From Acytostelium subglobosum LB1 (taxonomy: Eukaryota; Evosea; Eumycetozoa; Acytosteliales; Acytosteliaceae): a stretch of 64,000 nt of DNA. The stretch covers positions 1,214,576 to 1,278,575 of the forward strand of contig NW_012236528.1 of NCBI RefSeq assembly GCF_000787575.1. Direction: 5' to 3'. Position 1 is the first letter of the stretch. Each line of letters starts with the position of its first letter. This document shows positions 2,870 to 51,292 of this stretch, one piece after another. The notes beneath the pieces are model-generated. The model saw only the letters and a program-made list of their open reading frames with translations. It was not told the DNA's origin and searched no databases. The translations under genes and the position numbers were made by a program.

Positions 2870-4528
2870 TCAATGAATGTAAACTCGGGACTGGAACAAT
2901 GACTCGATGTGCATGTGAATGTTGAGCGATGTCTCGATTAATCTGTCCAGCATTGAGTTGGAGACAAAGCCACCAGCATAGAGTGACTCGCACAGTGTTA
3001 GTGAGTAGGACGGCTCGACTCGTAGAACCTTGGTCAAGTTGTGACCAATGAGTATCTCCAAGTGTTTGACATTCAAAGGCATCTCGGCCATCTTGATCGG
3101 TGTGCCCATGGGGAAGGATATATGCGTGAGGGCAGGCGGGAAGTACACGTCTGTTCGCGCCATCTTTGGTCCAAGCGTAATATGGGTCAGGGCATCGGGA
3201 AGGGCACCTTGTGTCAATATCTGATTAAAGTCTCTTCCAAGCACTAACTTTCGTAGCGATTGAGGCAACACGCCGCGAGGGATTGGCTGGTCATACATTT
3301 CTCCAAGTATGAGGGACTCGAGATGTGGAGGTAGATTGGATGTGATGTTCTTATCATCCTGCTCCCCTTTGCCCCAGAAGAAGCGTTCGATGAAGCCAGG
3401 TTTAGGGTCATCATTAGTGTAGAGGGCAACATTGAATCGGTTGCCAAGCGTTAGGTGCGTGACAGAGTCTGGTATAAACTCCAATGTTGAGCCAACCGAA
3501 TGATAGTTGAGCACCAAATGAGTGATTGTGTTGGGGAATGGTGTATGTATCTGTGGATGGACGTTAAGAGTGAGACGCGTGAGTGAGGGAGGAAGCGCCT
3601 CAACGTCCAGAGGTGTGTATGTGTGGGAGTAGACCATCTCGGTCAGTGACATTGGCAATGCGCCCAGTGTAATCACATTGCTAAAGTTGATGCCAAAGTC
3701 GATGTACTTGATGCCCTCAGGCAGGGCATCTTCTACAATCGGTTTGTTATAGTTCATCAAAGTTAGTCGCTCGATGGACGACGACTTTGGAATGATTCCA
3801 GGTGTGAGTGTGTGGACGTAGGATAGTTTGAGAAGGCGCACTGAAGATGGGATTGATCCGACCTCCAGTTGGTGTGTCTTTGGGGACGATAGCTCGAGGT
3901 CCTCAACAGATGACGGTATCCAACCTGGAGGCAACTGCTTATCATACGATGTACCAAATCTTAGTTGACGAACTGAGGCGGGGATTGAGCCTGGGACCAA
4001 AGGGTGATTGAACTTGTTGCCCAGGTCCAGACTTGTGACCGTAGTTGGGATAGTTCCTGGGAACAATAGGTTGCTGAACCCATTGCCAAGGTTAAGTATG
4101 GTTATTGTCGAGGGGATTGTGTGAGGCAGCAACGGCTCTTTGTAGAGGTTGCCAAAGGTGAGCGATCCGACGTTCAGTGGGATGGAAGACAGGTCCAAGG
4201 GCTGGTTGGCGGCCTTTTGTTTCTCGATCAAGCCATATGATGTGGTGTAGTGATGTGGAAAGTCATCGTACGATAGGTACAGCATGTCAATGGGCGCCTT
4301 CTCAATTGACTTGTAGATTATTGAATTGAATGACTTTAGGTGATTCCTTAGAATCTGTTGTTGGAATGTCTTCAAACATGGTAGATTCTTTGTATTAAAG
4401 AACATAATAGATTCACGTTCTTTATAGAATCTTCTGCAACATAATACAAAGCATACTCTATCAACATTAGAATCGAGCATCGTCACAATATGCTTGATCA
4501 ATATTCCTTGTAAATCTAATATTGACAT
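2870..4528 (-). CDS. FNIP-repeat protein with F-box-like N-terminus
   Basis: A 552-residue single-exon protein of the FNIP (IP22) repeat family, a leucine-rich-repeat-like family greatly expanded in dictyostelids. The N-terminal 50 residues carry the usual hydrophobic, F-box-like helix pair (IVTMLDSNVDRVCFVLCCRR). Roughly fifteen repeats of about 22 residues follow, of the type G-x-IP-x-S-V-x-x-L-x-x-G-x-x-F/Y-N-x-P-L. Examples are PGTIPTTVTSLDLGNKFNHP and PGSIPASVRQLRFGTSYDKQ. Some repeats are eroded, and an insert near residue 370 contains a charged loop. The exact role is unknown for almost all family members; substrate binding for ubiquitin ligases has been inferred from the F-box-like head. 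It converges on piaA. The family call is firm and the function is not known. Confidence 0.9.
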   Translation of the reverse strand: MSILDLQGILIKHIVTMLDSNVDRVCFVLCCRRFYKERESIMFFNTKNLPCLKTFQQQILRNHLKSFNSIIYKSIEKAPIDMLYLSYDDFPHHYTTSYGLIEKQKAANQPLDLSSIPLNVGSLTFGNLYKEPLLPHTIPSTITILNLGNGFSNLLFPGTIPTTVTSLDLGNKFNHPLVPGSIPASVRQLRFGTSYDKQLPPGWIPSSVEDLELSSPKTHQLEVGSIPSSVRLLKLSYVHTLTPGIIPKSSSIERLTLMNYNKPIVEDALPEGIKYIDFGINFSNVITLGALPMSLTEMVYSHTYTPLDVEALPPSLTRLTLNVHPQIHTPFPNTITHLVLNYHSVGSTLEFIPDSVTHLTLGNRFNVALYTNDDPKPGFIERFFWGKGEQDDKNITSNLPPHLESLILGEMYDQPIPRGVLPQSLRKLVLGRDFNQILTQGALPDALTHITLGPKMARTDVYFPPALTHISFPMGTPIKMAEMPLNVKHLEILIGHNLTKVLRVEPSYSLTLCESLYAGGFVSNSMLDRLIETSLNIHMHIESLFQSRVYIH

Positions 4529-4777
4529 GTCTAGTTGTTGATAGGATAGATTGATTGATTGATATATCTTTCTTGTTGTAATGTATGAATATAAGGTATT
4601 ATGTTTGGTTGATTGGTTTATTAATTAATTGAATGAATATTACATGTAGGTAGGTCGACAAAGTGATATTCATGAAGATCTTGAGAAGTGAAGTCTCCAA
4701 AAGTGTGAACACGGAGGATTCATCAAATTCAATGTCCAATCACTCTCACTCACAATGAAGAGATAAAGATAATAATA

Positions 4778-6415: not shown

Positions 6416-6614
6416 TTAATGATACGTTCGCCCAGAGTGTTTGATTGACTGCCTTGCGTTGTAGTTCTTGCGTATCCCTATTAATTTGATTTGCAGATCC
6501 TGATGAGAAAGCCCAACCAGGCCTCGTCCTCAGGTCCCTTCACCAAATTCTCAACCTGGGAATCATTTGATTGACCTTTACTTATCATCACATACAAATA
6601 TTCACTATAAGATA

Positions 6615-8261
6615 ATGGATACACTATCGCATATACTGATTAACGCGATATATGAACAGCTAAAGTTACTTGATGATGTCGATGTGATATGCTTCGCCTT
6701 GTGTTGTAGGAGACATTATGCATTGATGGTCAAAGGCGGATGGTCCCCAACAACCTACATCAAAGAACCGAGTTTGTTTGTGTCAGCCGACACATTCCTC
6801 GAGGATAAGAAAGGTCGTCTACCATCATCAGTCAAGATCATGTGGTATAATTGCAATGAAAACAACCAACCAATCGCACCTGGATCATTACCCGAATCGC
6901 TCACAGACTTTACTTTGTCCAACTCTTACCCGCATATGTTAGCGAATGGCGTATTGCCACCCTCTCTCCGTCGACTGACACTCAGAAACAACAACAACAC
7001 ATGGCCAGAAACCCTACCAGCATCTCTCACCTCCCTGTCATTTTTGGTCTACAGCCCATTGTTACGGTTGGGCTACCTACCCCCTACGCTCACCGAGCTG
7101 CTACTCGGTCGCTACGCCCTCAATGAACTACAGCCTGGTGCGCTGCCCGACTCATTGATCACACTAACTCTAGGTGATGGGTTCAATCACCGATTGCTTC
7201 CTGGTACTCTGCCTCAATCCCTTCGGAAACTCAGATTTGGCTCGTGCTTCAACATTAAGATCACAGCAGGTGTACTCCCTGCATCACTCAAATCACTCAA
7301 GTTTGGCCATGATTTCAGCGAGCGTTTTGATCATGGTGTTCTTCCAGCATCTATCATACGATTGTCCTTTGACCAAGTTTACCCAGTGCAACTCACCGAG
7401 GAGGTCCTGCCCGCGTCACTCACCAAGCTGACTGCCCCGTCTGGTACACTGAATCTGAGTTGTGGCATGCCTCAATCACTTACTCATCTAAAGTACGTCC
7501 CCCTCGGCCCTCCGTTAAAACAGCTGACACCAGCCAATATATTGCGGCTAACTCTGGGTAACGAGTTTGATATGGCACTCTCGGTCGGGCAGCTCAGCGA
7601 CTCTCTCACTGCACTGTCTCTGGGTCGCCGTTTCCACCAGGTTTTGGTGCCTCATGCGCTACCCCATTCATTGCTCTCACTACACCTTGGATTCTCGTTC
7701 AATCATCCAATCGAGAGATGGTCACTGCCGCAATCACTTACCCAACTCACGTTTGGCATGAAGTACAACAAGCCCATAATGGAACAACTACTTCCCGACA
7801 GCATAACAGAGTTGACATTTGGCTGTATGTTCACCAGTTTGATCGCACCTTGCTCTCTGCCAAAGTCATTGCGCGATCTATACATCCATAGTGATGCGTT
7901 AGCCATATTCAAGACATATTTCAACAAGACACTGGCAGTCGATCCTTCTCGCCACACTGTTCACCGTCTCAGCATTGAGAACTTCTACAACAATTTATTC
8001 ATTGAGATACTTGCCATCCAAAGTGTATTGAACTATCACCTGATATTGGACAATCGTATGGTCGTCTGTCGCAAGATCAACGAACATACTGTGGCATATG
8101 TAGTCAGAGGTCTAGATGGTGGACCAGTGACAGACATCACTCGCCACGCATCAGAGGACAACATACGCAACCTACTGGAACGAAGAACATGCCGTGGATG
8201 GGGCTTCTTCCCAATGCCATCACCACAAAGCAAACACTCAATTGGAGTTGACAAGGTTTGA
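6615..8261 (+). CDS. FNIP-repeat protein, upstream member of a paralogous pair
   Basis: A 548-residue single-exon FNIP protein. I chose ATG 6615 rather than the upstream in-frame ATG at 6567, because the paralogue at 9178 begins with the same peptide (MDTLSH-L/I-LI-AIY) and the extra upstream residues look like untranslated leader. The F-box-like head (LDDVDVICFALCCRRHY) precedes about fourteen repeats written mostly with LP-x-SL instead of IP-x-SV, for example PGALPDSLITLTLGDGFNHR. The tail RGWGFFPMPSP...VDKV is shared with the downstream paralogue. The repeats are intact and the frame is open. Function is unknown; a substrate-receptor role is inferred only from the F-box-like head. Confidence 0.9.
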   Translation: MDTLSHILINAIYEQLKLLDDVDVICFALCCRRHYALMVKGGWSPTTYIKEPSLFVSADTFLEDKKGRLPSSVKIMWYNCNENNQPIAPGSLPESLTDFTLSNSYPHMLANGVLPPSLRRLTLRNNNNTWPETLPASLTSLSFLVYSPLLRLGYLPPTLTELLLGRYALNELQPGALPDSLITLTLGDGFNHRLLPGTLPQSLRKLRFGSCFNIKITAGVLPASLKSLKFGHDFSERFDHGVLPASIIRLSFDQVYPVQLTEEVLPASLTKLTAPSGTLNLSCGMPQSLTHLKYVPLGPPLKQLTPANILRLTLGNEFDMALSVGQLSDSLTALSLGRRFHQVLVPHALPHSLLSLHLGFSFNHPIERWSLPQSLTQLTFGMKYNKPIMEQLLPDSITELTFGCMFTSLIAPCSLPKSLRDLYIHSDALAIFKTYFNKTLAVDPSRHTVHRLSIENFYNNLFIEILAIQSVLNYHLILDNRMVVCRKINEHTVAYVVRGLDGGPVTDITRHASEDNIRNLLERRTCRGWGFFPMPSPQSKHSIGVDKV

Positions 8262-9052: not shown

Positions 9053-9118
9053 ACCCTTACCCTTACCCTATATCCCTTACCCTTGCCCTAACCCTACCCT
9101 TACCCTAACCCTTGCCCT
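9053..9118. repeat. Degenerate telomere-like tract (CCCTTA/CCCTAA units)
   Basis: About eleven consecutive units beginning CCCT occupy this stretch: mainly CCCTTA, with CCCTAA, CCCTTG and CCCTA variants and one CCCTATAT interruption. Read on the minus strand these are TAAGGG/TTAGGG-like. The tract ends 59 bp before the ATG of the following FNIP gene. It could be a fossil interstitial telomeric insertion or a C-rich promoter element. Confidence 0.6.
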
Positions 9119-9177
9119 CGTCTGATTTCATTTTCCAACCGCATGATCAATCAATCAATCAAACAAACAAACAAATA

Positions 9178-10830
9178 ATGGATACACTATCACATTTATT
9201 GATCGATGCGATATACGATCAGTTACACTTACAGGACGATGTTGATGTTTTGTGCTTTGGATTGACATCAAAGAGACATTATGGACTGTTGATTAAGAGT
9301 GCCTGGGCCAGAGCCCCGCCTACTTACATCAGAGAACCAAGTTTGATGTGGACCGCCGACAGTCGACTGATCGAGAGAGGTCGCAAGCGTCTACCGTCAT
9401 CACTCAAGATCATGACGCACGATGGCAGTCACAACAGCGAGCCGATCGCACCTGGATCATTGCCAGATTCATTAACAGAGTTCACGCTAGGCTATGGTCA
9501 CGCTCATCAAATAATGGAGGGCGTGCTGCCGCCATCTATCCATCGTCTGACATTCAACAACAACAACAACCTCTGGCCAGACACCTTGCCGGTCTCGCTC
9601 ACATCTCTCACATTCATGTACGACAGTCCGCTGCTAGGGTTGGGCACGCTGCCTCCAACGCTCACCGAACTGTCCCTCGGTCGATTCAGCAACAATACAC
9701 TGCTGCCAGGTGTGCTACCCACCTCCCTAATCACATTGACGCTCGGTCAAGGGTTCATGCAGCCCTTGCTACTGGGTAGCCTGCCGCCCGGCCTGAAGAA
9801 GCTCACCTTTGGCATGATATACAACAAACCGATCAAGGAGGGCGTGCTCCCAATCTCACTCACATCGCTCAAGTTTGGACAGGGGTACCGTCAACGACTC
9901 GGCCCTGGCGTACTTCCGGCGTCAATCACACGATTATCCTTTGGCAAGGAGTACATACAACAGCTCACACAAGTGGACCTGCCCGCGTCACTCACCAAGC
10001 TTACGGCCACACCAGCCACTCAGTTGCTGAGCGTGCCTCCATCGCTCGTCCATCTGAAGCATTTCTGGGATGTACCATATAGCCTGCTACAGCCCACACC
10101 AGACACAATCAAGCACCTAACTCTCGGCAACTCATTTGAAGAGACTATCACGCCAGGCATGCTCGGTGACTCACTGACCGCACTAACACTAGGCCGCCTT
10201 TACAATCAAACTTTGGAGCCTGGTGGCTTGCCCCATAGTCTGCTCTCTCTCAGATTTGGATTCGCCTTCACTCGACCATTGGCGCGAGGGACACTCCCGC
10301 CCTCTCTTACAATACTGGAGTTTGGACCTGTATTTAGTCAACGAATCGCACCCGACACTCTCCCCGACAGCATCACCAAGTTGACATTTGGTGGCAGCTT
10401 CAATAGTGAGATCACACCCTGCGCGCTACCTTCGTCGTTGCGCGACCTATACATCAACATCCACTCGATACTCTCATTCAAAGCATACTTTAACAAGACT
10501 GTGGCCACTGATCCCACGCGCCACAGTGTGCACCGCCTACACATTGAACTTTTCTTCAACAGATCATTCGTCAACGTCATTGGCTTACCGAGCGTGTGCA
10601 GTGTGCACCTACCATTCGACGATCGAGTGGTCGTATGTCGAATGATCAATCAACGTACTGTCATGTATGTTGTTAAGAGCTTGGATGGCAGTACATTGAT
10701 CAACTCTACACGACCGGCCACAATGGAAACATTACAAAGACTACTTGATCGACGCATTCGTCGTGGATGGGGCTTCCTCCCCGTGCCATCACTTGCCAAC
10801 AGTCATTGTGTTGACGTGGACAAGGTATAA
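9178..10830 (+). CDS. FNIP-repeat protein, downstream member of the paralogous pair
   Basis: A 550-residue single-exon FNIP protein, clearly paralogous to the gene at 6615 along its whole length. Shared landmarks are the MDTLSHLLIDAIYDQL start, the IAPGSLPDSLTEFTLG repeat, the NNNN-LWP insert and the RRGWGFLPVPS...VDKV end. ATG 9178 follows a leader of TCAA repeats and ACAAACAAA, a typical A-rich start context here. An in-frame ATG is absent upstream (the open frame runs from a non-ATG codon at 9112). About fourteen LP-x-SL repeats are present. The glutaredoxin gene and a telomere-like tract separate it from its sister, so the duplication was either not strictly tandem or was later interrupted. 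Function is unknown. Confidence 0.9.
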   Translation: MDTLSHLLIDAIYDQLHLQDDVDVLCFGLTSKRHYGLLIKSAWARAPPTYIREPSLMWTADSRLIERGRKRLPSSLKIMTHDGSHNSEPIAPGSLPDSLTEFTLGYGHAHQIMEGVLPPSIHRLTFNNNNNLWPDTLPVSLTSLTFMYDSPLLGLGTLPPTLTELSLGRFSNNTLLPGVLPTSLITLTLGQGFMQPLLLGSLPPGLKKLTFGMIYNKPIKEGVLPISLTSLKFGQGYRQRLGPGVLPASITRLSFGKEYIQQLTQVDLPASLTKLTATPATQLLSVPPSLVHLKHFWDVPYSLLQPTPDTIKHLTLGNSFEETITPGMLGDSLTALTLGRLYNQTLEPGGLPHSLLSLRFGFAFTRPLARGTLPPSLTILEFGPVFSQRIAPDTLPDSITKLTFGGSFNSEITPCALPSSLRDLYINIHSILSFKAYFNKTVATDPTRHSVHRLHIELFFNRSFVNVIGLPSVCSVHLPFDDRVVVCRMINQRTVMYVVKSLDGSTLINSTRPATMETLQRLLDRRIRRGWGFLPVPSLANSHCVDVDKV

Positions 10831-10934: not shown

Positions 10935-11120
10935 TTAGTTGTAATTACCTAGAGGTACATCTTCTGACTCTTCGCACTTCTCATAGGCTAGCAATAGGTT
11001 GCCATCTAGGTAGGAGCATTGAGTTGGCTTTCTGCTGGCTAACTGCGAGGGCAAACGGCATTCGAAACGGAGTGGCACTAGGTCACTGTCCTCAAAGTAT
11101 GACTTCTGGATTAACGTCGA
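10935..11120 (-). pseudogene. C-terminal Hsp20-like fragment of the GTPase gene
   Basis: On the minus strand this stretch encodes the second half of an Hsp20/alpha-crystallin-type domain, including PLRFECRLPSQLAS and CSYLDGNLLLAYEKCEE, then stops at 10935. It has no start codon or splice acceptor of its own. It continues in frame with the opposite-strand block 11128-11334 if that block is flipped. It therefore reads best as the original 3' end of the GBP-type GTPase gene, cut off by the inversion at 11121-11334. Whether it is translated today is unknown. Confidence 0.55.
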
Positions 11121-11334
11121 TAACTTGCTCAATCAGGTTGGGGTACAGATTGAGCGTGAAGCGTTCAAGGCCAAGATCACCGAGGACGATGACAAGTACT
11201 ATATCAGCATCCTATGTCCAGGCTATTCAAAGGATGACCTAAGTGCCAAGGCCACCGAGATCCCTGGAGAGGTTGGAACCAAGGTGACCATCACCTCGAC
11301 TAAGCCCATGCGTGACATGGTTCCAAACAAGTTA
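11121..11334 (+). other. Inverted block carrying the first half of an Hsp20-like domain
   Basis: On the plus strand this block encodes the first half of an Hsp20-like fold, including DDDKYYISILCPGYSKDDL and VTITSTKPM. Both flanks encode their parts of the same domain-bearing gene on the minus strand. The block is bounded by a 7-bp inverted repeat, TAACTTG at 11121-11127 and CAAGTTA at 11328-11334. The right copy also sits in a 10-bp palindrome, AAGTTAACTT. Flipping the block joins it in frame to the C-terminal fragment (PNKL into KLSTLIQK). The other junction is out of frame by 2 bp. It is either a true micro-inversion or an assembly fault. Confidence 0.6.
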
Positions 11335-12471
11335 ACTTTGGCGCCTCATCCTTGATCACGGCCTGGGAGCACTTGATCTTGATAGTTCCATCATCGTTGA
11401 ATGGTGCAACCTTGGGCAAGTCAGCTTCAAAGAACCTGCGGAGATGGCTGTTGGTGAACTCCAGGACCATGTTCAAAAGGTTTAGACTTCTCTGTGAGTC
11501 TGAAGCTGCGGCCTTGAGCCACTCCTTCAACATGTCAATGGTTCGCTGATTGTAGAGCTTGCCAGCGGGCGAGTTGGATGTCCTCTCGTCACGGGCCAAC
11601 ACCACGTGTCTCGTGTTGTCAGTCTCCACCCAGTATGGACGTTCTGGGTCACACTCTTTGGCGCCGAATCCTTCGACAATGTCCTCTCGGATAACCTGTG
11701 CCATCTGGTCGAGAGTGACCACTGATGGCACATTATGGACGATGATAATCTTCTTGTTTACCTTATCCTTTAGCATGTTCTTCATCTGATGGATGTAGAC
11801 CTGGTCCTCACGATGCATCCTATCAACTACAATCAAGATTGTGTCGGCAAGATGGGCAGAAAGACATTTCAAGAATCGCTCGGTGGATTCGGCCTGCATC
11901 AACTTCTTCTCGTCGGCAAGTTTAACAGCTTGTTGAGAACCCTTTGTATCCAGTCCAATTAGGTTCAAGGTCATCTTACTATCCTTCCTTGGCATCACAA
12001 CACTGATACCTTCGGTGTGACTAAAGAATGAACTCTCAAAGCTCAAGTCCAGTATCCTAGACAACACATAGCTCTTGCCTCTATTGAACAGGCCCAGGAC
12101 ACACATAATCGATCCATCAGTTATAAATGCTAAACAATTGAATATGTGATTGATTGATTGAGTGATGGTTTTAAGTTTAGGAATAGTTCCAAGAGGGTGG
12201 GATACTTACAATCCTTGGGATGGGCATAGTTTGGTGTTACACGATCAGGCTGGAAACTTAGACCTCTTTTAATTTTGTCAGGTAGACCTCCACGAGCTAA
12301 TTGATCAGCTGCTTGTTTGTGTGCAGAGTAGAGTGGAAATTGGATATCCCATCCAGACTTGTAAACATGTTTCAACTTATTGATACAGAATATTATATCA
12401 TAAAGAGAACGATCCTTTGGGTAAATAGCATTATTATACCCAATTTTAAGTTCTTCCAATTCCATAGACAT
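11300..12471 (-). CDS. GBP/dynamin-like large GTPase, 3' part rearranged
   Basis: Two exons, complement 12210-12471 and 11300-12129, joined across a GTAAGT...TTTAG intron to give 363 residues. The G domain shows a P-loop (GLFNRGKS), a conserved HTEGI switch segment and a G3 motif in NLIGLDTKG. IIVHN lies where G4 is expected but is not a canonical N/T-K-x-D. The pattern is closest to guanylate-binding-protein and interferon-inducible large GTPases. The C-terminal region (RRFFEADLPKVAPFNDDGTI) leads to DEAPKL, after which the present frame enters the inverted block and ends in 10 unrelated residues at 11300. The ancestral protein probably had an Hsp20-like tail. Substrate, membrane and partners are unknown. 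Confidence 0.7.
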
Positions 12472-22673: not shown

Positions 22674-23494
22674 TCTATATAAATATATATGTAAAGTAGT
22701 AGTTATTGTAATGATAATAATAATAGTGTAAGTAATAGTAAATGAAACGAGTTAACGAGGTAAGATGGTCGATCCTGGATGGATCAAGGACTGGAAGGAA
22801 AAAAGAAAGAATGTGTGTTTCTCAATCGTTCATTCAAGCCAAACGTCGACTTGTCAACGTGTTCATCTCAATACAGTCAATGAATGTTATAACTTAAAGA
22901 GATATAATAAGTAAGGTAAGGATGATATGGCATGACATGTTTGTTTGTAAAGGCACATAAGTCATGTCAATTGAATTCATATAATGGTCGATAACGATGA
23001 TCTCAGATTGTAATTAAACAACTTGTAAAACATGATGATTATGAGATGTTGATTGACTTTCAAACATGTCAATTTACATTGAGCATAAGTGTAAATGTCA
23101 CAAAAGAGGATATTAATAGCTATTAGACACATTACCATTACATAAAGAATAAGCTTCCACACTGAAGACATACATGTAACCTACCACAAGACGACTTCCG
23201 AAGTATGACTCTTTTTAAAAGCTTTCAATGGAAAGAAAACAAAAAACCCATCAAAGAATCCCATCAAAACAAAGATATTTTGGTCAAATTCACAATGTCG
23301 ATGTCGAATCACTCAGAGCACTGCAAATGGATGCATACCCGTCCACCTTACCCTTACATTACTGCCACCACAACCATCCATCCATCGACACGGAGACTGT
23401 GAACTGTCTATGGGTGTGACACGAAGATTTATAAGACCGTTTGATCTTCATTCCAAGCCATTCAATCAATCAACCAATCAAACAAAGAAACAAA
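22674..23494. other. Divergent intergenic region
   Basis: 820 bp between the phosphatase and the GPI-type protein gene. AT-rich near the phosphatase start and TCAA-rich just before 23495. No credible gene. Short open frames around 23200-23420 read into leader sequence. Confidence 0.5.
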
Positions 23495-25258
23495 ATGTCA
23501 AAGACATATAACTATTTATTTATTTATTTAAGTTGTGTATTATTAGTATTATTAGGTTGCCAACCATTGGCTACCAATGCTGATTGTATAAATGGAAGTG
23601 CCAAGTCCATTTCACAGTACAACATCACCTTCACTTTTGACAAGCAGGTACCATGTGGTCAGTTTGTCAATGGTGACTACTGGGTCACACCTGCCCCCGC
23701 TGCTGCTGGCAGTGCCAGCCCCACAGTGACCATCATCTCAATCACACCAGACTTCAACGGAACTTTCCATGGATGGGAGGTCAACCCCACCAGCTGGGTC
23801 CAGAACGGCTTTGACTATGAGATTGATGGCTTCAACAAGTCACTCGTCCCCACTCTCCCCTATGCCGCCGCAGTCAACTCATCTGTCGTCAAGGCAATCT
23901 CAGAGACTGGTGTCGATCGTTGTGACAACCATCACGGCTGTCTGTTGACCGCCGCCGTGCTGACCGTGTTGGAGAAAGCACCACCCGCCAACACCTTCCG
24001 TCCATCATACTTTGGCAAGGTCAAGAAGCAGTACTCTGCCAACAACCTGCGTTCAAGCATCTTGCCCAACCTGGCTCCGACCGCTGAAACCCCCACCCAC
24101 GCCTACATGATGTCGCGTTTCCAGCGTGTTCAGCTCGATCATTACAAGTACTGGCAGGGTCGCTACCTCCACCCAACACTCAACATGGCCGACTATGGTG
24201 CACAGATTGCCAGTGACTCTGGAGACGGAGCACTCTACCTCACCCTGAGCATGACTGTAGCCCAGAAGAAGGAGTTCCTGATCCTCTACACACAGGCTTG
24301 TTTGGACTATGCCGGTATGTTGTTTGCCGGCGTGACATGGCAGGCTGATGGTGGTCACGGCTCTGGTCGTAAGATGCCAGTGGCCTTTGCCGCCGTTATC
24401 ACTGGAGACCAGGACATCTACAACAGGATCTCCAATGTCACACCAAACACATTCGGAGAGGATGGCCAGCTCTACTACAGCAAGAACGCCAGTCGCGTGC
24501 TTTGGGGCCAGATCGCCTGTACATGGGACGACTACTGGTACTACATTCTTAATGCTCCAGACGGACAGAAGGACTGCGCTGACCCATACGGATACATCGA
24601 TGGTGGCATTCCAGACGAGTCCTCCTACCAGTTCTGCTGCACCTCTGCTTCGTGGAGATCGACTGCACTCGTTCTGCGCATCATTCCAGGTTTGGCCTGC
24701 GCTTTCAACTTTGACTACTTCTTGCAGTACGCTGATCGCTGGCACTATGGTGGAGTGTGGACCGCCCCAGACCCTTTCACCAAGAGTGCCCCAGGTGGTG
24801 TGCTTGGAACACCCAGTCGTTTTGGTACCTTGAATGGAACCCTTGCTGGACAAGGCTACTACTCTTCCGACTTCTCCCTCAACATGTGGAACACGTATCG
24901 TATGAGTGGATTGGCCAATCAAACATCAACTTGCACTGGACCATTCACCACTGCTGGTTCCACTACTTCCGCCGGCACCACCGTCTCACCAACAACCTCC
25001 ACCTCGACCACTAGTGCAGGACCATCCACAACTACTGGCTCACCTGCCACTACCATCACCACTAGTGCTGGTCCATCCACAACCACCACTACATCGTCCA
25101 CCTCTGCAGCTGCCACTACCTCTACCACCTCATCAACTACCACTGCCGCCCCATCTACCACCTCAACTACCACCTCTCGCCAACCAAGCAGTGCAATCAA
25201 GGTTGCTGTCTCTTCAATGATGTTGCTCGCCTTCATTTTTGTTGCCATCATGTTGTAG
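23495..25258 (+). CDS. Secreted or GPI-anchored surface protein with Ser/Thr-rich stalk, family unknown
   Basis: 587 residues, single exon. I prefer ATG 23495 because it is preceded by the A-rich leader AACAAAGAAACAAA and begins a signal peptide (YLSCVLLVLLGCQPLATNA). The upstream ATG at 23441 adds 18 leader-like residues. The body (about residues 40-475) is rich in Trp, Tyr and Cys (YWVTPAPAAAG, HGCLLTAAVLTVLEKAPP, DGGHGSGRKMPVAFAAVITG, WGQIACTWDDYWYYI). It has several N-glycosylation sites. A mucin-like T/S/P stalk of about 90 residues follows. The hydrophobic end (VAVSSMMLLAFIFVAIML) fits a GPI-anchor signal. I do not recognise the globular domain. The G-H-G-S-G-R-K segment could be a ligand or catalytic loop, but this is speculation. 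Confidence 0.75.
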   Translation: MSKTYNYLFIYLSCVLLVLLGCQPLATNADCINGSAKSISQYNITFTFDKQVPCGQFVNGDYWVTPAPAAAGSASPTVTIISITPDFNGTFHGWEVNPTSWVQNGFDYEIDGFNKSLVPTLPYAAAVNSSVVKAISETGVDRCDNHHGCLLTAAVLTVLEKAPPANTFRPSYFGKVKKQYSANNLRSSILPNLAPTAETPTHAYMMSRFQRVQLDHYKYWQGRYLHPTLNMADYGAQIASDSGDGALYLTLSMTVAQKKEFLILYTQACLDYAGMLFAGVTWQADGGHGSGRKMPVAFAAVITGDQDIYNRISNVTPNTFGEDGQLYYSKNASRVLWGQIACTWDDYWYYILNAPDGQKDCADPYGYIDGGIPDESSYQFCCTSASWRSTALVLRIIPGLACAFNFDYFLQYADRWHYGGVWTAPDPFTKSAPGGVLGTPSRFGTLNGTLAGQGYYSSDFSLNMWNTYRMSGLANQTSTCTGPFTTAGSTTSAGTTVSPTTSTSTTSAGPSTTTGSPATTITTSAGPSTTTTTSSTSAAATTSTTSSTTTAAPSTTSTTTSRQPSSAIKVAVSSMMLLAFIFVAIML

Positions 25259-30913: not shown

Positions 30914-32404
30914 CTATTTGTGTAAACGTTGTTGTCCTGATCGAGCGGGCTTGGACAGTGCAAAGATTGAGATGACCACTACCATGCAGACGACCAGGCT
31001 AGAGGCCACAGGGAAGAAAATGTCGTACCAAGCAGACGATGATGTTGACGAAGTTGACGACGGTGTAGTTGATGATTTCGAGTCAATGTCCTTGTCCTTG
31101 TTGGACGATGATGATGACTCGTTATTGTTTTGCATTGACAATGTGTTCATGATGGCAGATAGTTCTTGATCGATGGCGTGCTCGGCCTGTTGGCGCCTCT
31201 CACGCATCAGTCGACTGTTCAACTCCATCTGGTGTAGCAGATTCTCAACGTTGGACAGTTGTTGCTCGGTCGCACCATTCGTCGAGGAGTGCAAGGAGGA
31301 TGTCGACGAGCACGGCGACGACATGATCGACGACGGCTGTGAATCACTCGCGTATATATTACTGTAGCCACTGTTGTTGCTTATATTGTTGTGCCCGCTG
31401 TTGTTGTTACTGCTGGTAGTCTGCTGTAGGTTGTTGGTCATCATCTCGGACAACGATATCTCAATCTTGAGCAGACTCTGTGTCGTGTGTTGGGTGTAGT
31501 CGCGCAGGTCTTCCAGGTCGTGCTTGAGGTAGTCCTCAATCTCTTCAGTCTTGCAGTCTACGCTCCAGTTCTTAAACTTATGTACATTCTTATCTCGCCT
31601 ACTACTGCTGTTGCCGCTGGCGCTGGTGCTGTTGTTGCTCTTCCTTCTTCGACGAGTCGGTGGTGGATCGGAGTGATGGACATGCCCACGATGTTGAGTT
31701 GGATGATGCTCCAATGGGTATCGATATTGTTTGATTGTTTGTGATTGTGATTGAGTTGCTAACTGTTGTTGTTGTTGTTGTTGCTGACGCGCCAACTCTT
31801 GCTCATTTTGTTGATGTTGTATCAGCTGTGCTTGCAACATCTTTAGTCGTTCAATCTTTATAGCATCGATGCGCTCTTGAACAATGTCGACGTATTGTGT
31901 GGCAGAAGCAGCGGCGGCCTTGATAATGAACACTTCAAATAGGTGACCGACCATGTACATGTTGAATGTTGTGCGCAGTGTAAGTTCCAGTTTGATCTGA
32001 TTGTTGGTCTGCTTCGACAGTATCCACTCGGTCTCCACATTGAAGTAATCGCCCATTATATCTGGTCTGTAGTTTGTTGTTATACGTGTGATATCTGCTG
32101 CGCCTTGTGTCATCGGCGTCGGCGCATATATACACTGTTGCTCGACGATCGACGTTGCATCCTTGCCAATCAGCTTGCGTATTGATGGTGGGGCATTGAT
32201 TGGTGCCTGAAATGATATAGATCTAGTCTCTGATCCACGCGGTATTGTAGTAGTAGTTGTAGTTGTAGTAGTCCATGGTGTGAATGATATATTGATGTCG
32301 CCTCTGGCTAGATGATACTGTCGTTGACCATCCTCATCCTTGTAAATAGTTAAGAAGTCTGCTATTGTGCATTCGAATGTTCTAATAACCTTCTCTTCTT
32401 TCAT
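30914..32404 (-). CDS. VASt-domain membrane protein (Lam/Aster-like sterol-transfer family)
   Basis: 496 residues, single exon. Residues 1-180 match the VASt (StAR-like) fold of Lam/GRAMD1 proteins, which move sterol at ER-plasma membrane contacts. Visible parts are a start strand (FECTIADFLTIYKDEDGQRQ), a central strand pair (SISFQAPINAPPSIRKLIGK), the diagnostic IMGDYFNVETEWILSKQ, and LELTLRTTFNMYMVGHLFE. A Q-rich coiled segment and S/N-rich linker follow. A membrane segment near the C-terminus (FPVASSLVVCMVVVISIFAL) and a short basic tail suggest an ER tail anchor. No GRAM domain precedes VASt, so the layout is shorter than animal and fungal relatives. Lipid specificity is not visible. Confidence 0.75.
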   Translation of the reverse strand: MKEEKVIRTFECTIADFLTIYKDEDGQRQYHLARGDINISFTPWTTTTTTTTTIPRGSETRSISFQAPINAPPSIRKLIGKDATSIVEQQCIYAPTPMTQGAADITRITTNYRPDIMGDYFNVETEWILSKQTNNQIKLELTLRTTFNMYMVGHLFEVFIIKAAAASATQYVDIVQERIDAIKIERLKMLQAQLIQHQQNEQELARQQQQQQQQLATQSQSQTIKQYRYPLEHHPTQHRGHVHHSDPPPTRRRRKSNNSTSASGNSSSRRDKNVHKFKNWSVDCKTEEIEDYLKHDLEDLRDYTQHTTQSLLKIEISLSEMMTNNLQQTTSSNNNSGHNNISNNSGYSNIYASDSQPSSIMSSPCSSTSSLHSSTNGATEQQLSNVENLLHQMELNSRLMRERRQQAEHAIDQELSAIMNTLSMQNNNESSSSSNKDKDIDSKSSTTPSSTSSTSSSAWYDIFFPVASSLVVCMVVVISIFALSKPARSGQQRLHK

Positions 32405-32546
32405 TTCTTATCTCTAATATCAATTCAATGCAATCAATATCAACATCTCTCTATAAAAATCTTTGTATCACTAACTTGTTGTATGAAAACTGATCTGAGA
32501 ATGACAACCAATCACAAGTTCCCTCTTTTTTTTCAAAGTTGAACAA

Positions 32547-32694: not shown

Positions 32695-33462
32695 TTATAG
32701 TTTCTGGAATCCAATATTTATTCTGGTGTCAGCAGTGAGAGTGAAGCAGTACTTATTGTTGTCCAATGTGTTATCTTGATTCAACACAGGCACACGTTGG
32801 TAACCAGGATGGATTGTTGACGACACGCAATATCCACCATAGTATAGGTTGAAATCGCCGCCTGTGGCCGATGGTGTAATGGTGACTGAATCTCCTTTCG
32901 CACCCTCGACCGTAACACTTATCACCTGGTCGGTAAAGTAGTGGTCTACTGGAGCGTTGAACACATTGTCTTTGTTGATGTCATCCCAGACGAATGCAGA
33001 AAGTACGAATATCTTCCTCCTGAATCCAACGTTGACCGTCTTGTCTGCACCGAGAGTGAAACAGAAGTTGTTGTTGGCGTCGAATGAGTTGTCGTTGTTG
33101 AGAACAGTCAAATGATTAAAGAACTGTGAGGGAGCGGGCAGGGTTGTGGACATGCAGTAATCACCAGCAAACAAGTTGTTGAATTGGTAGCCTGGGTTGT
33201 TGGCCGTGGTGGTCTGTGTGTTGACCAGAGTACCATTCTTGAACTTGAGGGAGAAATCGATGTTGGCGAGGAATGGCTCATCAGTTCTAACATCACTGTC
33301 ATCAATGTTGAATGAGTTGTAATCACTAGTGACGGCAACACGCTCATATCCAGTTGGGATTGATGCAGACATGCAGTAGTCACCAGCAAGAACATGATTG
33401 AAAGAGTATGATGGGTTGGTGGCCATGGTCACTTGGGCGGCTACAACACTGCCATCACTCTT
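32695..33462 (-). pseudogene. SdrD/colossin-like repeat gene, truncated at its 5' end
   Basis: About 256 residues containing three units of an SdrD-B/CnaB-like beta-sandwich repeat typical of dictyostelid colossin-family surface proteins. Unit hallmarks are Y-x-F-N-x-x-x-AGDYCMS, a Y/F-x-x-V-x-x-x-N-S/T-x-D segment and FTLxADxxxNxGF. Examples are NPGYQFNNLFAGDYCMS and KYCFTLTADTRINIGFQ. The first unit starts partway through a repeat and no signal peptide is present. The upstream codons belong to a retroelement fragment in the same frame, so this looks like the 3' remnant of a larger secreted-protein gene. Whether the fused frame is expressed is unknown. Confidence 0.65.
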
Positions 33463-33723
33463 CCTCTTGAGATGATTGAACAGCTGATCATCTTCCTCAG
33501 TCCAATCAAACTTGGCTCCCTTCTTCATGAACCGTCCCAACTTCAGTGTGGTAGCTGAGTAGTTGTCAATGTAGTGTCTGTGGTAGGCAAGCAGACCTAA
33601 GAACCCGGCGAGTTGTTCCTTCGAGTGTGGTCTCTCCCAGTCATGAATTGCTTGAAGTTTTGCCCGAGTGGGTTTGACAGCATATTTACATACACCATAC
33701 CTACCTAACTCATATGATTCCAA
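33463..33723 (-). mobile_element. Fossil Ty3/gypsy-type retrotransposon fragment (reverse transcriptase end)
   Basis: About 87 residues match the end of a Ty3/gypsy reverse transcriptase, with the characteristic KEQLAGFLGLLAYHRHYI and a following F-x-W-T-x-E-x-x-x-x-F-x-x-L-K segment. Dictyostelid gypsy elements of the Skipper and DGLT-A groups are the likely source family. Only this piece is recognisable; gag, integrase and LTRs were not found nearby, so the element is broken and incomplete. It runs directly into the colossin-like repeats. The open frame hints at moderate age, but no age can be measured. Confidence 0.75.
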
Positions 33724-34425
33724 TACCTACATTATACTATGATCATCTATCCACAACCTAGTGGAGTAAATAAATTAGCAAATGGATTTGTTCCCCCCTC
33801 TGGCAGTGAGCCACAACACAATAAAACTCTACAATAATAAGAGGCTCCACATCAATTCCAAAGTAGAGGAAAATCACCTTTAATTGTCTACCCTTTGATC
33901 AGTAATCATTGGTATAACATATGTGGTTTGACGGTCAATGTAGTACTAATTTTAATATCGTAGATAAAATTATTCAGTGTGCTAATATTTAGCCCATGCA
34001 TTAGTGCTTTGAGACCTGAATAATAATAGGGTAAGTGAATTGGTACATCACTAGTAAATATTGTGATGTGGTTAAATGTGGCAATCAGTGAATAAATGAA
34101 TGAATGAATGTGGAGGGGAAGAATTTCACCTCTAGTAGTAGTAGGGTAATCCTAGATCAATAAATTATCGATAGTAGGTAAGGCCTTACTTTATTAAACC
34201 CCACAGTGCTGTCTGAAAGTTTGATGGAGATGAGGTGTATCCATTTTTGGACAAAGTTTTCCTCTTTAAGCAATCTAACAATGGTTAACCATTGTACGAA
34301 CAAAACCATCGTAGTATTATCACAAAAATCAAACTCAAATACATACATATACATATACATATACATACATTTAGACTTCTAATATCTAATAATATGTTAA
34401 ATTTTAAATATGCCATCTCCAAGTC
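33724..34425. other. Intergenic region beside the retroelement fossil
   Basis: 700 bp, AT-rich, with no gene recognised. Its composition is less repetitive than other spacers (no TTGA runs), so part of it may be old mobile-element sequence, but I could not match it to a family. A TACATA hexamer run occurs at about 34340-34370. Confidence 0.4.
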
Positions 34426-36762: not shown

Positions 36763-39700
36763 TTAGTTACTTTGGAAGATTGACGAGAGACCAAATGATG
36801 ATGGCTTGTAGTCTGGCAGCAACTGCTTGAAAAATGGAGAGTTGTTGGTGAGCTCGGTGATGATGTGCGTGAAGTTGAAGGCCGATCTGTCTTGTTGCGG
36901 CAGGTGTATGGTGGCCCTGCTCTTGTCGTCGCCCTGGTACTCGATCAGGAAGGAGGGTGCGCCAATCACGATGTCAACGTGCGGGCCCACCGTCTGGATG
37001 GACGCGACGTCCGTCGACAGGAAAATTACATTCTTGAGATGGCTGGCCGCGTCGTACTGCGCCTGCGTGCTGACGATGCTGTCGGCGTCGATGCGCACCG
37101 ACGCCAGCGCCGACTTCTCGACGATCGAGTTGATCACCGTCTCGATGGCCTTGAGCTGCAGCAGGTTCTGCGTGGGCTGCATCACCGACTGGTAGTATCT
37201 GTTGTGCAGCAGCATCATCTTGTCGTAGTGCGAGTTGAGGAACAGCACCAGGTCGCGCTCGGTAAAGTTCATTGGGATGAACACAAACGCCACCTCGAGG
37301 TCATGCGACATGATGAAGTTGTAGTGGTCCGAGATGACCACGTGGATGTTGGACCAGGGGAAGTCTGTGAGCTTCTGGCGTGCGTTGACGGTCTCGGTGT
37401 CTGGCTTCTCTGCTGCGTCGAGCGCATCCTGTGTAGACTCGGAGGCTGCGTCGACATTTGTTGCGTCGTTGACGTTGGTCTCGGCGCCAGTGCCAAAGGT
37501 GGGTGCGGCAAAGTTAGACACGAGCTTGGCGCGTGACTGGGCGTTCAGGTCGGCCTGGACGGGCGCCAGCGACTCTCTGTGTGTGAGGTACTCGACTGTC
37601 TGCTTGGGCGAGTCAAAGACGCCGATATCACTCATGTTCTCCATCTGCTCCTCCTCTTGGTTCACCTTGTTCTCAGTCGTGTTCATCTCGACCTTGTTCT
37701 TGGGGAACACCAGAGGCACCTGCTGCTCGGTCGTGAGCATCTCCAGCAGTCTGTTGGCGGCCTTCATTGCGGCGTTGACCTTGGGTGCTGTCTGAATGTA
37801 CTCCACCTGGTTGTTATCGATGATTGTCAGCGGAGTCTCGCGCACATCTGACACAACGTTCTTGTTGGACACTGTTTGGAGCAGGCCCTCGACGGCCATG
37901 GCCAGCTCTTCAGCCGTCAGGTAGTGATACTCCTGCTTGATGATACTCTCGGCCAGTTGGGTCTTGGCAATGCCGTCGAGCTTGATGTTGTGCAACTGCC
38001 ACTTCATAAAGTCAATGTCGTCCACACGCGAGTCTGGCAGCGACAGCCACTTGTTGGCGCGCTCAGTCTCGAACACTCGCAGAATGGGCACTGTCATCTT
38101 GGACACTGTTGTGTTGGTCTTTGACAACTTCTCTCTTGCTGCTCTCATTGATGGTTGATTGACGTAGAACATATCCTCAATGATCAAGCTGTTTGCTCCA
38201 AGTGTCCTGTTGATGTTGATGGAGGGCGAGGGTTAGTGTGATAATTCGATTGATTGATTGAATGGAATGGATTCCAGTGATTGATCTTACTTCTCAACAA
38301 TGGACAAGGTCTTGTCAAGGATGGACAGGTTGGTCTTGGCTGTGGTGTAGAGGTCTCTGAATGTCTTGGACAGTCTGGGCACCTGTTGCTTGATGTAGGG
38401 CAGGGTGGTGTATGGGTCAAAGTCGGTGGCCAACACGACAAAGCCTTGCTGAGAGGTGGCCTCCTGCATCTTCTCCAAGAACTGTGGCTTGGTGATGAGG
38501 ATGGGCAGCTGATACCACTCGTTGTACTCGAGCACCTTGAGGTTGCTGCGCAGATGCTCGATCTGTTTGTTTGTCAGCTCGCCAAGGCCACGTGCGTGCA
38601 TCTCGCTGATGTCGCCCTTTGCGTTCTTGCCAAAGTAGAAGTATAGCTTGTCCTCGTTGAACATCGACTGCAACTCATTCTGGCTGTTCTCCTCGGCGGC
38701 TTTGGTGGCCGCCTCTTCGACGTCGTGCTGATTGTCCACAACGGTGCCGTCCTCATCGATTATATCGTCAATGTCGTGCTCCTGCTCGATGCCCTCGAAC
38801 AGAATATCATCCAATGTCTTCTCCTGTGTCTTTGATGCGGGACGCACCAACTCCTCGACCATCGACGTGATGCTCGACTTGTGCTCCATCATGGCCAGCT
38901 CTCTCTGATCGCGACCCTGGCTGTCAAAGTAGGACTCCCATGGGTCCTCATATAGTTGTGCGCCCATTGTAGCCTCTGGGTTCTGAAGGTCCTTGAGCTC
39001 CTTGGCAGTCACGGCAATGCCGGACTTCTTGACGAGCTCGTAAAGCTGGCGGTCAAGCGCCAGACGGAAGCGCGCAGTGTAGCTGATCAGCGCCGACTTG
39101 GACGTGGCGATCTCGGCGGGCGACTCCTCAAAGACAAACTGATGAGTCAAGAGGCCCTCGGCACCCTGCTCGGTCTCGTAGTGGAATGTGAAGGCGGTCG
39201 TCAGTGGGACGCGCTCCAACTTGGTGCTGAGCGAAGTGCCATTGACCAACGCCACGTAGTCGTCGCGGTTGTTGAGCAGACGTGCAAGCTTCCAGAGTGA
39301 CTGGCGGTTGGTGCTGGCCTTGGCCTCGTTGCTGAAGCGCTTGGGGTTGACGTTGTGCAAGAACTTTCTAAAGTGCATGCGCAGCGCGCTTTCAATGTCG
39401 CTGGTGGCGTGGCTGTAGGGCAGCTGCTTGGTCATGGGTTTGATCGCATTGAGCTGGAGTGGGCGCTCTTGTCGGCGGCGGCGCATCTCAAGCGAGCCTT
39501 GCTCGGTTGTCTGGTAGAGAATGGGCTCCGACTCGAAGAACTCGACGTCCTCGTTGGGAACATCGTCCTCATTTCCCTCTTCGTCGTCGAGAGCGAGGGG
39601 CGCGTCCTTGGACTCGGGGTCCTCCGCCTCCATCTCCTTTAGGAGCGACTCTGGCACCATGCTCTCCAAGTTGAGCAGGGATCTCCTCGTCTGTGGCGTA

Positions 39701-40431
39701 TCCTGTTGTGTGCCAAGCAAAGCCTTCTCACGTTGCTTGACCAGTGCAATGCGCTCGTTCTCCACCTGGATCTTCTCGGACAGACGCAGCTGGTTGGCCA
39801 GACGCCTGAACTCGTCGCGGCTGAATTCATCGCTGTCACGTGGCAGCTCATTGTCGTCGATGACCAGCTCGTGCTCGAGCTGCGCGAGGTCGTGCTGCAG
39901 CTGCAGGTCGATCTGGCGATCCTGCTCCTGTCGCTCCTGCTCGCTCAGCTCGCGGTCGTCGTCATCGTCCTCGTTGTGCTGCGCGCCGCCACCCTGTGAA
40001 CTCGCATTATACGTGCCACTGTTTGTGTAGAGTCCAGTTGGCTGCGACTGAATATGTTGTGATTTGACGAATGGATTTGATCCATGTCTCTGCTGTCTCG
40101 CCTGCATACTCTGAGGTCTCTGTTGTCTTGATTGCAACAAATCCTTTGGATGTCCTTTCTGTTGTTGTTTTTGTTGTTGCTGTTGTTGATTGACATTGCT
40201 GCTCTTGTTATTGTTGTTGTTGTTGTTTGATGACGATGATGATGATGAGCCATCAGTTGTGAAGTGTCTGAGGAACAGTGCACTGGTGATGTTGCTGTTG
40301 ATTGACAACGTTGATTGACGTCTCAACACTGCTGACTGTGTTGAGTGTCTGATAGTCAACCCAACCAGTCTGTTCATGTTTGTTCTCTGTCTGTATAATG
40401 CGCTTTGATTGATTGCTTTGAACACTCTCAC
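36763..40431 (-). CDS. Large mitochondrial protein, DUF4460/4461 (TCAIM)-like
   Basis: 1194 residues in two exons (38291-40431 and 36763-38206; junction IVEK into TLGANSLIIED). The N-terminus is a probable mitochondrial presequence, either from the first Met or from Met19 (MNRLVGLTIRHSTQSAVLRR). S/N/Q-rich tracts and a charged coiled coil (QIDLQLQHDLAQLEHELVID) follow. The segment SALRMHFRKFLHNVNPKRF, then SLWKLARLLN, resembles the DUF4460 start found in T-cell activation inhibitor (TCAIM) proteins. A C-terminal domain (NIHVVISDHYNFIMSHDLEV, AFVFIPMNFTERDLVLFLNS) could correspond to DUF4461. This match is from memory and weak. No catalytic motif is visible. An acidic stretch (ILFEGIEQEHDIDDIIDEDG) lies mid-protein. 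Confidence 0.5.
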
Positions 40432-40743: not shown

Positions 40744-43424
40744 TCACTTTGGCTGTTTCTTCTTGAAGACCCAGTTGATCTCAGACTCATCCAATGAGCT
40801 AGAACGTGATGGATGAGGATGTTGTTGTTGTTGTTGTGGTTGTGGTTGTGGATATTGTGGAGGATGAGTTGGAGGAGGATATTGCTGAGTTGGTGGTGCT
40901 GCTTGTGGATGTGATGGTGATGATTGTGATTGTGATGGATAGAGATGATGCTGAAGGTGATTTGATGGTGCGTGTAGTGGTGGATGGGAGTGCGCATGTG
41001 ACGGCATGCTACTCGGTATGGGCATGGCCGACGATGTTAGGTGCGGTGGCGTAAGGTGTAATTGTTGTTGTTGATGATGATGACTTGTGAGTTGCGAGGT
41101 TGGCACAGGACTCTTTGGAAGATGTCCGCCGCCATGATATACATTTCCGCCAGCGCTAGCGCCAGGGACCACAACAACTTGTTGTTGTTGATGTATGAAT
41201 GGTAGGGTTGGGGTGGGTGGCGCGCCTGATGGCGGCGAGAGCGACGGCGACAGCTTGGACGGCGCGCCAGTCGGGGTGTTGGACGCAGAGGAGACAACAT
41301 ATTGTTGATGTTGGTGGTGGTAGGGTGAGGGAGGCGGGGGGTAGCTGCCGGTGCTGCTGCTGTTAATCGAGTTGTTGTTGCTACTGCTGTTGATTAAACT
41401 AATGCTATTTCCATAGCTTGTAAACTTGTTGTTGGATGAGAGGGGGTGTGAGTGCGCCAGACTGCCGGGCGGTGGCGTGGGGCGCATGTTGAAAGCCGAC
41501 GGCGAATAAATATTGCTGCTGCTGCCACCTATGCGCGGCGCGTCGTCTATTGCCAGCTTGCCAATGTTATTGCCCGACGTGTTGAGTTTCTTGTGTGAGG
41601 GCGAGGGGTGTGTGGGGCTCGAGCTGCCCGGACCGCCATACATGCCCGCGAATGGCGTCTGCTGGAGCGGGATGGGCTGGGTCGGCATGGGCGCGATCAG
41701 GTGTTTGGCCGAGGACGTGCGATGCTGCTGTTGCTGTTGTTGTTGGTAGTGCTGGAAATGTGGCGAGTGGTGCTGCTGCTGGTACAGGTTGCTCAGGTGG
41801 AATAGTTCAGGTTTGATGACATCGCCCACCTTCTCGTGCTTGGCGACGTGGCGCGAGAAGTTGGTGATCATGTGCAGGCTGCAGCCCTGGAAGAAGCAGA
41901 TGTACTTGCCCTCAGCGTCCATGCGGAACAGCTTCAGTCCGTACTTGATCATCTGCTCGCGCAGCTGGACGCCTCGAGAGGAGTAGCGCGTGGGGATGGC
42001 GTAGTGCTGTTCGGTGTCGTCGGCGTCGCCTCCATGGGTTGGCGGCGACGAGTTGTGGCTGGAGGTGTGTGTCGTGGTGGTGGACGAGCCCGCCGCGCGC
42101 TTACCGCCCGACGATGACTCGATCATCATGGCGGAGCTGCCAGTCTCAGACTCGTCGTCCTCGGTACGTGGCTCTGGCGTCGTCTCATTGATGTCTGGCC
42201 GCCGCTGGCGCTTGGACGATGCAGCCAGCATTTCCTTGGTGGGCGGTGTTTCGTTTTGGTAGTGGATGAACAGTGATTGAAAGCGCACCAGTGACTCCTT
42301 CCCGTAGGCCTTTGAGTTCTGTAGTATCTGCTCATCGACATCCTTCTCTTTATCAAAGCGCGAGTTGCCGTCCACAAACAGCAAGTCCTCCATCAGCTGA
42401 TGGCCCTGTGCCTCATGTACCTTCAGATGGACAATGTACTTTTCCAGTTTGTTTGATCGAATGGGATGTAGGCATCCTATGTTTGTTGAGTGATTGATCG
42501 AAGGGAGGGATGGTGTGAGTATGGAATAATTCCAGACCAGAAGGGACACACAGGAATCATACCTCTGTATATACAAATGAAATGATAGTATTGATCCCTT
42601 GGAAACCTGATGTGGCCGTCACCATTGTCGTCAATGGTACGTTGCATCATGTTGAGGATGGAATCCAGGTCAATGCATTCGGACTGCTCGCTGTCGATCA
42701 TCTTTCGCTTGGCGGCAGTCGTAGTGTTGATGTTGATGTTGGTGTTGGTATTGGAGGTGGAGGTGGAGGTTGTGGAGGTACTGGTGGTGGATGTGGATGT
42801 GGTCGACGTCGACATGGCCATGGCCATGGACAGGGTGGATGAGGTGGAGGAGGAGAGCGACAGCGCACCTGGACTCGGAATGGATGTTGAAGTGGAGAGT
42901 GGGGAGGGGGATGGCTTCATCGACGTCAGTAGGGTTGGCGACGGCGATGACGATGGCTGATTATGGTGCGGCAGTGTTTGGAGCGATGATGATTCCAAAC
43001 TGTTGGTAATTATGGACGTTGGTGATATTGCTGGTTGCTGGGAGGAGGAAGAGGATGTGTGGAGAGGATTATGAGGAGGTGGCAGGGGAGAGGACGGAGG
43101 TGACAGGTTTGATGTAGATGTGGACGTCGAGCTGCTGATTGGCGTTGTTACGCTAAGCTGTGTTTGTTGTTGTTGATGTTGTTGTTGGTGTAAATGATGT
43201 GGCAGTTGCTGTTTTGTCGTCGGCGGTGGCGCATTATTATTCTGAGCGGCCGCCTGGTCGGGCATATCAGTCTCTGTCGCAGCTGACTTATTGCCCATTT
43301 CCTCATCAGACTCTTCGCCGCCGGTGCCGCCGCCGCCACCACCATTGTTGGGCTTGTTGGACGTCGATGATGGCGCCGGCGAACTTGGGCTGGGAGGGGA
43401 GGATGGAGGAGTCTGCTGCGACAT
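40744..43424 (-). CDS. Q/S/P-rich nuclear-type protein with a C2H2-like zinc finger
   Basis: 864 residues if translation starts at ATG 43424. Exons on the minus strand: 42563-43424 and 40744-42476 (junction CIYR into GCLHPIRSNK). Conserved cores are IDSEQSECIDLDSILNMMQR, HIRFPRDQYYHFICIYR plus SNKLEKYIVHLKVHEAQGHQ, and a zinc-finger-like YICFFQGCSLHMITNFSRHV with Cys-x4-Cys-x10-His-x3-His. The rest is low-complexity P/S/H/Q, as in transcriptional regulators. The end (LDESEINWVFKKKQPK) is a short charged motif. The frame stays open upstream to a 3' splice-like TATCAG (first exon base 43503), so a further 5' exon may be lost in or beyond the scaffold gap. I do not recognise a named family. Confidence 0.6.
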
Positions 43425-51101: not shown

Positions 51102-51292
51102 TTTTTTAAAATTATAATAACAAGTGTAAACATATTTTTCTATTAATAATACTGTAGTAGATTTGGTTTCATTAATTCAAGATGAACCTTTTAATTCCAA
51201 AGGTAGATATTGTTCACCTTGAACAATGGATATGTCACACTCTTACCAAGCATTGGGTTAATAATACACACTGATGACTTCCCTGCTCTTTA

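Follow-up and report, generated by a model that had tools for sequence, protein, structure and literature searches.

Why does the 3′ part of a gene change its coding strand twice? This question is raised by positions 10,935 to 12,471 of a 64-kb window of the Acytostelium subglobosum LB1 genome (the whole stretch of 64,000 nucleotides analyzed, on contig NW_012236528.1; all positions are those of the window), where a minus-strand gene for a putative GTPase is followed by an open plus-strand block and then by a minus-strand tail. An initial annotation had described this block as an inverted piece splitting the Hsp20-like end of the GTPase gene and had offered a recent micro-inversion, a reversible switch of the C terminus or an assembly error as its origin. 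The analyses described here confirmed that a short segment is reverse-complemented relative to its flanks and give good support to an inversion as the type of rearrangement, be it in the genome itself or in a sequencing library. On balance, the event was probably a one-off microinversion of ∼207 to 214 bp within coding sequence toward the 3′ end of a gene for a guanylate-binding protein (GBP)-like GTPase with an alpha-crystallin-like C-terminal domain.

Double switch of coding strand

The coding strand changes from minus to plus and back to minus at two points, in agreement with the split gene proposed initially. Exon 2 of the GTPase gene, up to the upstream breakpoint (11335 to 12129, minus strand), is open with 0 stops and has a codon score of 0.145. 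The block (11128 to 11327, plus strand; translation NLLNQVGVQIEREAFKAKITEDDDKYYISILCPGYSKDDL..MVPNK) is also open with 0 stops and scores 0.241, while its three minus frames contain 3, 6 and 3 stops and have negative scores. The orphan 3′ end, or tail (10935 to 11120, minus strand; STLIQKSYF..GNYN, stop at 10937-10935), is open with 0 stops and scores 0.173, with one plus frame also open and scoring −0.109. Neither the block nor the tail has a start codon at its head. The plus-strand coding score was 17.65 across the block and, in the same frame, −0.48 and −1.48 immediately outside it. Control chunks of 198 nt (n = 244) came from elsewhere in the window, namely from the 15 coding stretches that formed the training set for the codon score, which makes this control a favorable one; an open antisense frame was present in 59 of them and outscored the sense frame in 1 of these 59.

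A seven-state codon-usage segmentation of the whole window detected the block as the only strand "sandwich" at a penalty of 6, with a score of 19.1. At a penalty of 4, nine sandwiches were listed, of which the block scored 18.7 and the next 10.1. When the segmentation was repeated at a penalty of 6 with 100 random subsets, each of 8 of the 15 training stretches, the block was recovered in 100 of 100 resamplings. The right breakpoint was placed at 11330 in 52, 11329 in 38, 11333 in 8 and 11335 in 2 of these and, hence, in 98 of 100 cases within CAAGTTA (11328 to 11334). This sequence is one arm of a 7-bp inverted repeat whose other arm, TAACTTG (11121 to 11127), stands at the left end of the block; the two arms, already noticed in the initial annotation, are exact. 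As the segmentation did not use the repeats, the location of the right breakpoint inside one of them was found independently. The left breakpoint was placed at 11111, 10 nt outside the arm, in 91 resamplings, at 11162 in 6 and at 11159 in 3.

A flip of 11121 to 11334 brings block and tail into one open frame (..MVPNKL|STLIQ..) and sets the Hsp20-like N-terminal half in front of the tail. The frame argument is nevertheless undecided, because one in-frame and one out-of-frame junction, the combination obtained here, is compatible with chance; the junction frames are, therefore, treated as neutral and the main weight is placed on the double switch of coding strand.

The GTPase and the putative alpha-crystallin-like domain

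As written, the GTPase gene starts at 12471, contains one intron and stops at 11300 on the minus strand, encoding 363 residues. Exon 1 (12210 to 12471), open from its ATG, encodes 87 residues and one base of the next codon; it is joined to exon 2 across an 80-nt intron (GTAAGTAT...TTGTTTAG, 12130 to 12209) with GTAAGT..TTTAG signals. Exon 2 is marked by its coding score, by GTPase motifs and by matches to the Pfam families GBP and MMR_HSR1. Past the breakpoint, the current frame runs antisense through the block for ∼9 residues (CLEPCHAWA, 11300 to 11334, with its stop at 11302-11300), a stretch with a codon score of −4.39. A gene at 9109 to 10830 (plus strand), with FNIP repeats as judged by eye, runs toward the broken GTPase gene, the two convergent ends lying ∼105 bp apart.

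The motifs of the encoded protein are a P-loop, GLFNRGKS, followed by SHTEGI and GLDTKG. Pfam GBP matched over a 60-residue stretch only (E = 4.9e-5; 23.1 bits versus a cut-off of 21.1) and MMR_HSR1 matched the same protein at 8.9e-5, both narrowly passing their cut-offs. A sequence search of the PDB listed ten chains at E values of up to 1, of which four were guanylate-binding proteins (5, 5, 2 and 1; E = 0.1 to 0.71) and the other six seemed unrelated; the three motifs lined up with those of GBPs in the three alignments shown, at weak E values. An AlphaFold2 model of exon 2 from the single sequence had a pLDDT of 36.4 and was unusable for judging whether a C-terminal helical domain follows the G domain. 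These matches give weak support to the GBP type proposed in the initial annotation for this putative GTPase.

For the Hsp20-like domain, Pfam gave no Hsp20 match at an E value of ≤1, and NCBIfam families of small heat shock proteins (sHSPs) matched well under their cut-offs (Hsp18_Clos, 0.036; Hsp14, 0.049). A home-made profile was built from 25 sHSPs (23 from fetched loci and 2 typed, some being fragments). With the full profile, the block scored 18.5 bits and the flipped whole 17.0 bits, the best shuffle scoring 9.9 and none of the 1,709 scored (of 2,000) reaching either value; the unflipped minus frames gave nothing (−2.1 and −2.9). With a profile of the N-terminal half, the block scored 22.2 bits, shuffles reached a maximum of 9.2 and 0 of 2,463 scored (of 3,000) were as high. 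The alignment of the block to sHSPs is centered on ITEDDDKYYISILCPGYSKDDL and includes the strands of the N-terminal half with the PG motif. These results support the block as the probable first half of an alpha-crystallin-like domain, the plus-strand half that had been predicted.

The other predicted half, the end of the domain on the minus strand, obtained no profile support: as an Hsp20 half by itself, the tail was supported by neither the full profile nor one of the C-terminal half. We read the tail as the second half of the domain from its position and from its frame after the flip. A loose motif, LP..DGxLxL, occurs in it where the second half is expected and was matched by 118 of 100,000 shuffles; this pattern was picked post hoc and is matched by only 9 of the 25 reference sHSPs. 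A PDB search with the flipped domain gave one match, at an E value of 1, and a tblastn search of plasmids at E ≤ 10 gave six records, none with an Hsp20 annotation. Relatives of the GTPase and the flipped domain sought in viral contigs and prokaryote genomes were pattern matches only, none of which was confirmed.

A putative fusion of a GTPase with an Hsp20-like domain would be the less ordinary part of the finding. No report of such a fusion in Dictyostelium or Amoebozoa was found in the literature, as judged by titles and the starts of abstracts.

Origin of the inverted block

Short inverted repeats are common around the block (84 pairs of ≥7 nt in 1.6 kb) and, hence, the 7-bp arms are weak evidence on their own. 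Among 2,000 random pairs of sites 207 nt apart, a repeat pair lay within 8, 12, 20 and 30 nt in 12, 42, 169 and 361 cases; in shuffles, a repeat pair was present at half-widths of 8, 12 and 20 in 0, 5 and 18 of 300. The coincidence of repeats and breakpoints would arise by chance in ∼0.6% to 8% of cases, depending on how tightly the breakpoints are defined, and is of modest significance.

Two hairpin stems sit immediately inside the repeat arms. The left (11127 to 11155) has a perfect 8-bp stem, GCTCAATC / GATTGAGC, with a 13-nt loop, and the right (11273 to 11326) a perfect 9-bp stem, TTGGAACCA / TGGTTCCAA, with a 36-nt loop. Comparable stems (at least 8 bp, with a loop of up to 40 and low-complexity sequence excluded) began at 15 places across 26,477 bp of coding sequence from elsewhere, and one more was present in the GTPase gene (11697 to 11732). 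When the block was recoded synonymously 20,000 times, a stem appeared at the left end in 78, at the right end in 338 and at both in 2, while two or more stems anywhere were present in 200. Folding of the DNA of the block region was ordinary (z = −0.98, with 32 of 200 shuffles folding equally well or better), and only the two end stems stood out in it.

The presence of hairpins at both inner ends fits with template switching, and the evidence as a whole is compatible with a single microinversion by this route or by microhomology-mediated break-induced replication, the models proposed for microinversions in PMC8755829. In this scenario, the hairpins would have stalled a replication fork or a break-repair intermediate; a jump to the complementary strand at the short inverted repeat, synthesis across the block in reverse and a return to the original strand would have followed, with a small indel arising near the upstream junction. 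The present product would be a protein of 363 residues with the whole GTPase part and the antisense end but without the chaperone-like domain, and the block and 3′ tail would be left as orphaned coding sequence. PMC8755829 reports flanking inverted repeats in 59 of 59 definite human-chimpanzee microinversions, 4 to 7 nt long in 28 of the 59. Yeast genes in which the spacer between inverted repeats is inverted within coding sequence are described in PMC8604942. Hairpins can be made or mended by template switching (PMC8794818), and the end stems could be either causes or scars of this process.

Several observations weigh against a microinversion of a gene with this domain. After the flip, the upstream junction between GTPase and block is out of frame through a loss of 1 nt or a gain of 2 nt, the offset at one junction that the initial annotation had also seen. 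The left end is less certain than the right: segmentation at penalties of 4 and 5 starts the plus segment at 11162 and assigns 11128 to 11161 to a different minus frame. The tail scored −0.7 with the full sHSP profile, a value matched or beaten by 298 of 1,709 scored shuffles, and was itself unreported by the C-terminal-half profile (built from 23 of the 25 sHSPs), by which 1,732 of 3,000 tail shuffles were reported. The profile gives no argument for the flipped order, because swapping the block and tail leaves the score no lower (17.4 versus 17.0 bits). The hairpin statistic is a lead rather than a proof, as it was devised post hoc. The inversion is also long for its arms, since published microinversions measure 17 to 33 nt between human and chimpanzee (PMC8755829) and the yeast spacers are 2 to 5 bp between arms of over 9 bp (PMC8604942). 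Finally, the ancestral orientation is one that we infer.

An artefact of sequencing, cloning or assembly is a serious possibility, although we consider it less probable. The gene would be intact in the genome, and the inversion would stem from a chimeric clone, from template switching in a library molecule or from a join made at low coverage. Hairpins and short inverted repeats may also promote template switching in vitro; inverted chimeric reads are reported to arise in whole-genome amplification; the remainder of the gene is intact; and the indel next to the junction is equally compatible with a sequence error. However, two junctions are required for a balanced inversion, and no further strand sandwich was detected at a penalty of 6 in the window. 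Assemblers usually work with k-mers or overlaps longer than these 7-bp repeats, and assembly software alone, therefore, would hardly be responsible.

It is unlikely that the block is a foreign insert, for which a fragment from a different gene, sHSP-like or a paralogue, would have entered a break in reverse orientation. Such an insert would account for the out-of-frame junction, and, as the tail is unrecognized as Hsp20 by profile, the native 3′ part of the gene could be something other than Hsp20. On the other hand, the flipped block is in frame with the tail, for which the chance is one in three, and the LP..DGxLxL stretch of the tail, a loose and post hoc motif, is positioned as the second half of the domain. 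In the window, neither the GTPase nor block plus tail had a second copy (no other tblastn match better than E = 1).

There is very little in favor of the block being an intron of a minus-strand gene whose product is GTPase plus tail, with the plus-strand frame an accident. Of 91 donor-acceptor pairs (7 GT donors and 13 AG acceptors), 29 would connect the GTPase to the tail without a stop, but none of the 7 donors reads GTAAGT or GTATGT, unlike the clear intron of the gene. The G+C content of the block is 51%, in contrast to ∼32% in that intron (12130 to 12209, measured on a stretch one base off), and the block has the codon usage of plus-strand coding sequence and the Hsp20 match.

Least probable of all is a programmed, reversible DNA switch exchanging the C terminus of the GTPase, which the initial annotation had entertained and which has almost no support: the block is inverted at inverted repeats inside a coding region and some short yeast spacers flip both ways by template switching (PMC8604942), but the repeats are of 7 bp only, where site-specific recombination calls for sites of >7 bp and a recombinase gene, no recombinase domain was detected in the 18 other open reading frames (ORFs) of the window that were scanned, a part of its ORFs (Pfam, E = 0.001), the frame would still be broken at the upstream junction after a flip, and the alternative C terminus would consist of the ∼9 antisense residues. 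We give hardly more credence to a dictyostelid GTPase of GBP-like type that has an alpha-crystallin chaperone domain of its own and whose chaperone half flips via its hairpin-capped ends, so that cells or strains would differ in carrying it.

Surrounding genes and comparison with known systems

The window contains RICTOR-like and SWIRM/Myb genes, which are eukaryotic, and FNIP-repeat genes, which suggest a dictyostelid, account for 3 of the 18 scanned ORFs. No matches were obtained in the window with Rfam or in a tRNA scan. Besides the gene convergent with the GTPase gene, long FNIP-repeat genes lie at 2870-4624 (minus strand), 6507-8261 (plus) and 49854-51176 (minus), three of the four being clustered. 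Within a VASt-domain ORF at 30914-32407 (minus), positions 31269-31335 score on the opposite strand at a penalty of 4 (10.1); no inversion is suspected there, because the minus frame is open throughout and the protein has low-complexity runs. Long ORFs (343 to 714 residues) lacking a Pfam match at an E value of 0.001 are present at 23435-25258 (plus), 36763-38232 (minus), 38287-40431 (minus), 40744-42618 (minus) and 61028-62059 (plus). The ORF at 32695-33726 (minus) has an SdrD B-like domain (2.2e-12), a fold found mainly in bacterial surface proteins.

Microinversions at short inverted repeats are an already known kind of event. If real, the present case would be a readable microinversion of ∼200 bp with hairpins at both ends in a coding gene of an amoeba. 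It would exceed the catalogued human-chimpanzee events in size and could serve to test template switching or microhomology-mediated repair. It would also point to an uncommon combination of a GTPase with an Hsp20-like domain, one that would escape gene prediction as the domain is divided between two strands. If an artefact, it would be a warning that one gene of this record is wrong.

The GTPase aligns with GBPs, a group that includes Gnbp of Dictyostelium discoideum, at the P-loop, HT.GI and LDT.G motifs, at weak E values. D. discoideum has a single GBP, Gnbp, of 796 residues (PMC8565484 and PMC12040241). Gnbp differs in that its G domain is followed by a long further part and its C terminus carries a membrane segment; the word "Hsp20" is absent from the main text of both papers. 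By eye, the GTPase also lacks the TLRD-type fourth motif of GBPs. In comparison with sHSPs, the alpha-crystallin-like domain would stand behind a GTPase, has no Pfam match, falls below the NCBIfam cut-offs and has an unrecognized second half.

As in the human-chimpanzee microinversions (PMC8755829), the block is bounded by short inverted repeats; unlike those events, which were seen by alignment to a relative, it spans ∼207 bp, was deduced from this one sequence and has an indel near one junction. The yeast spacer inversions (PMC8604942) likewise lie inside coding sequence, whereas the inversion in A. subglobosum has a 200-nt spacer between 7-bp arms and hairpins at its inner ends.
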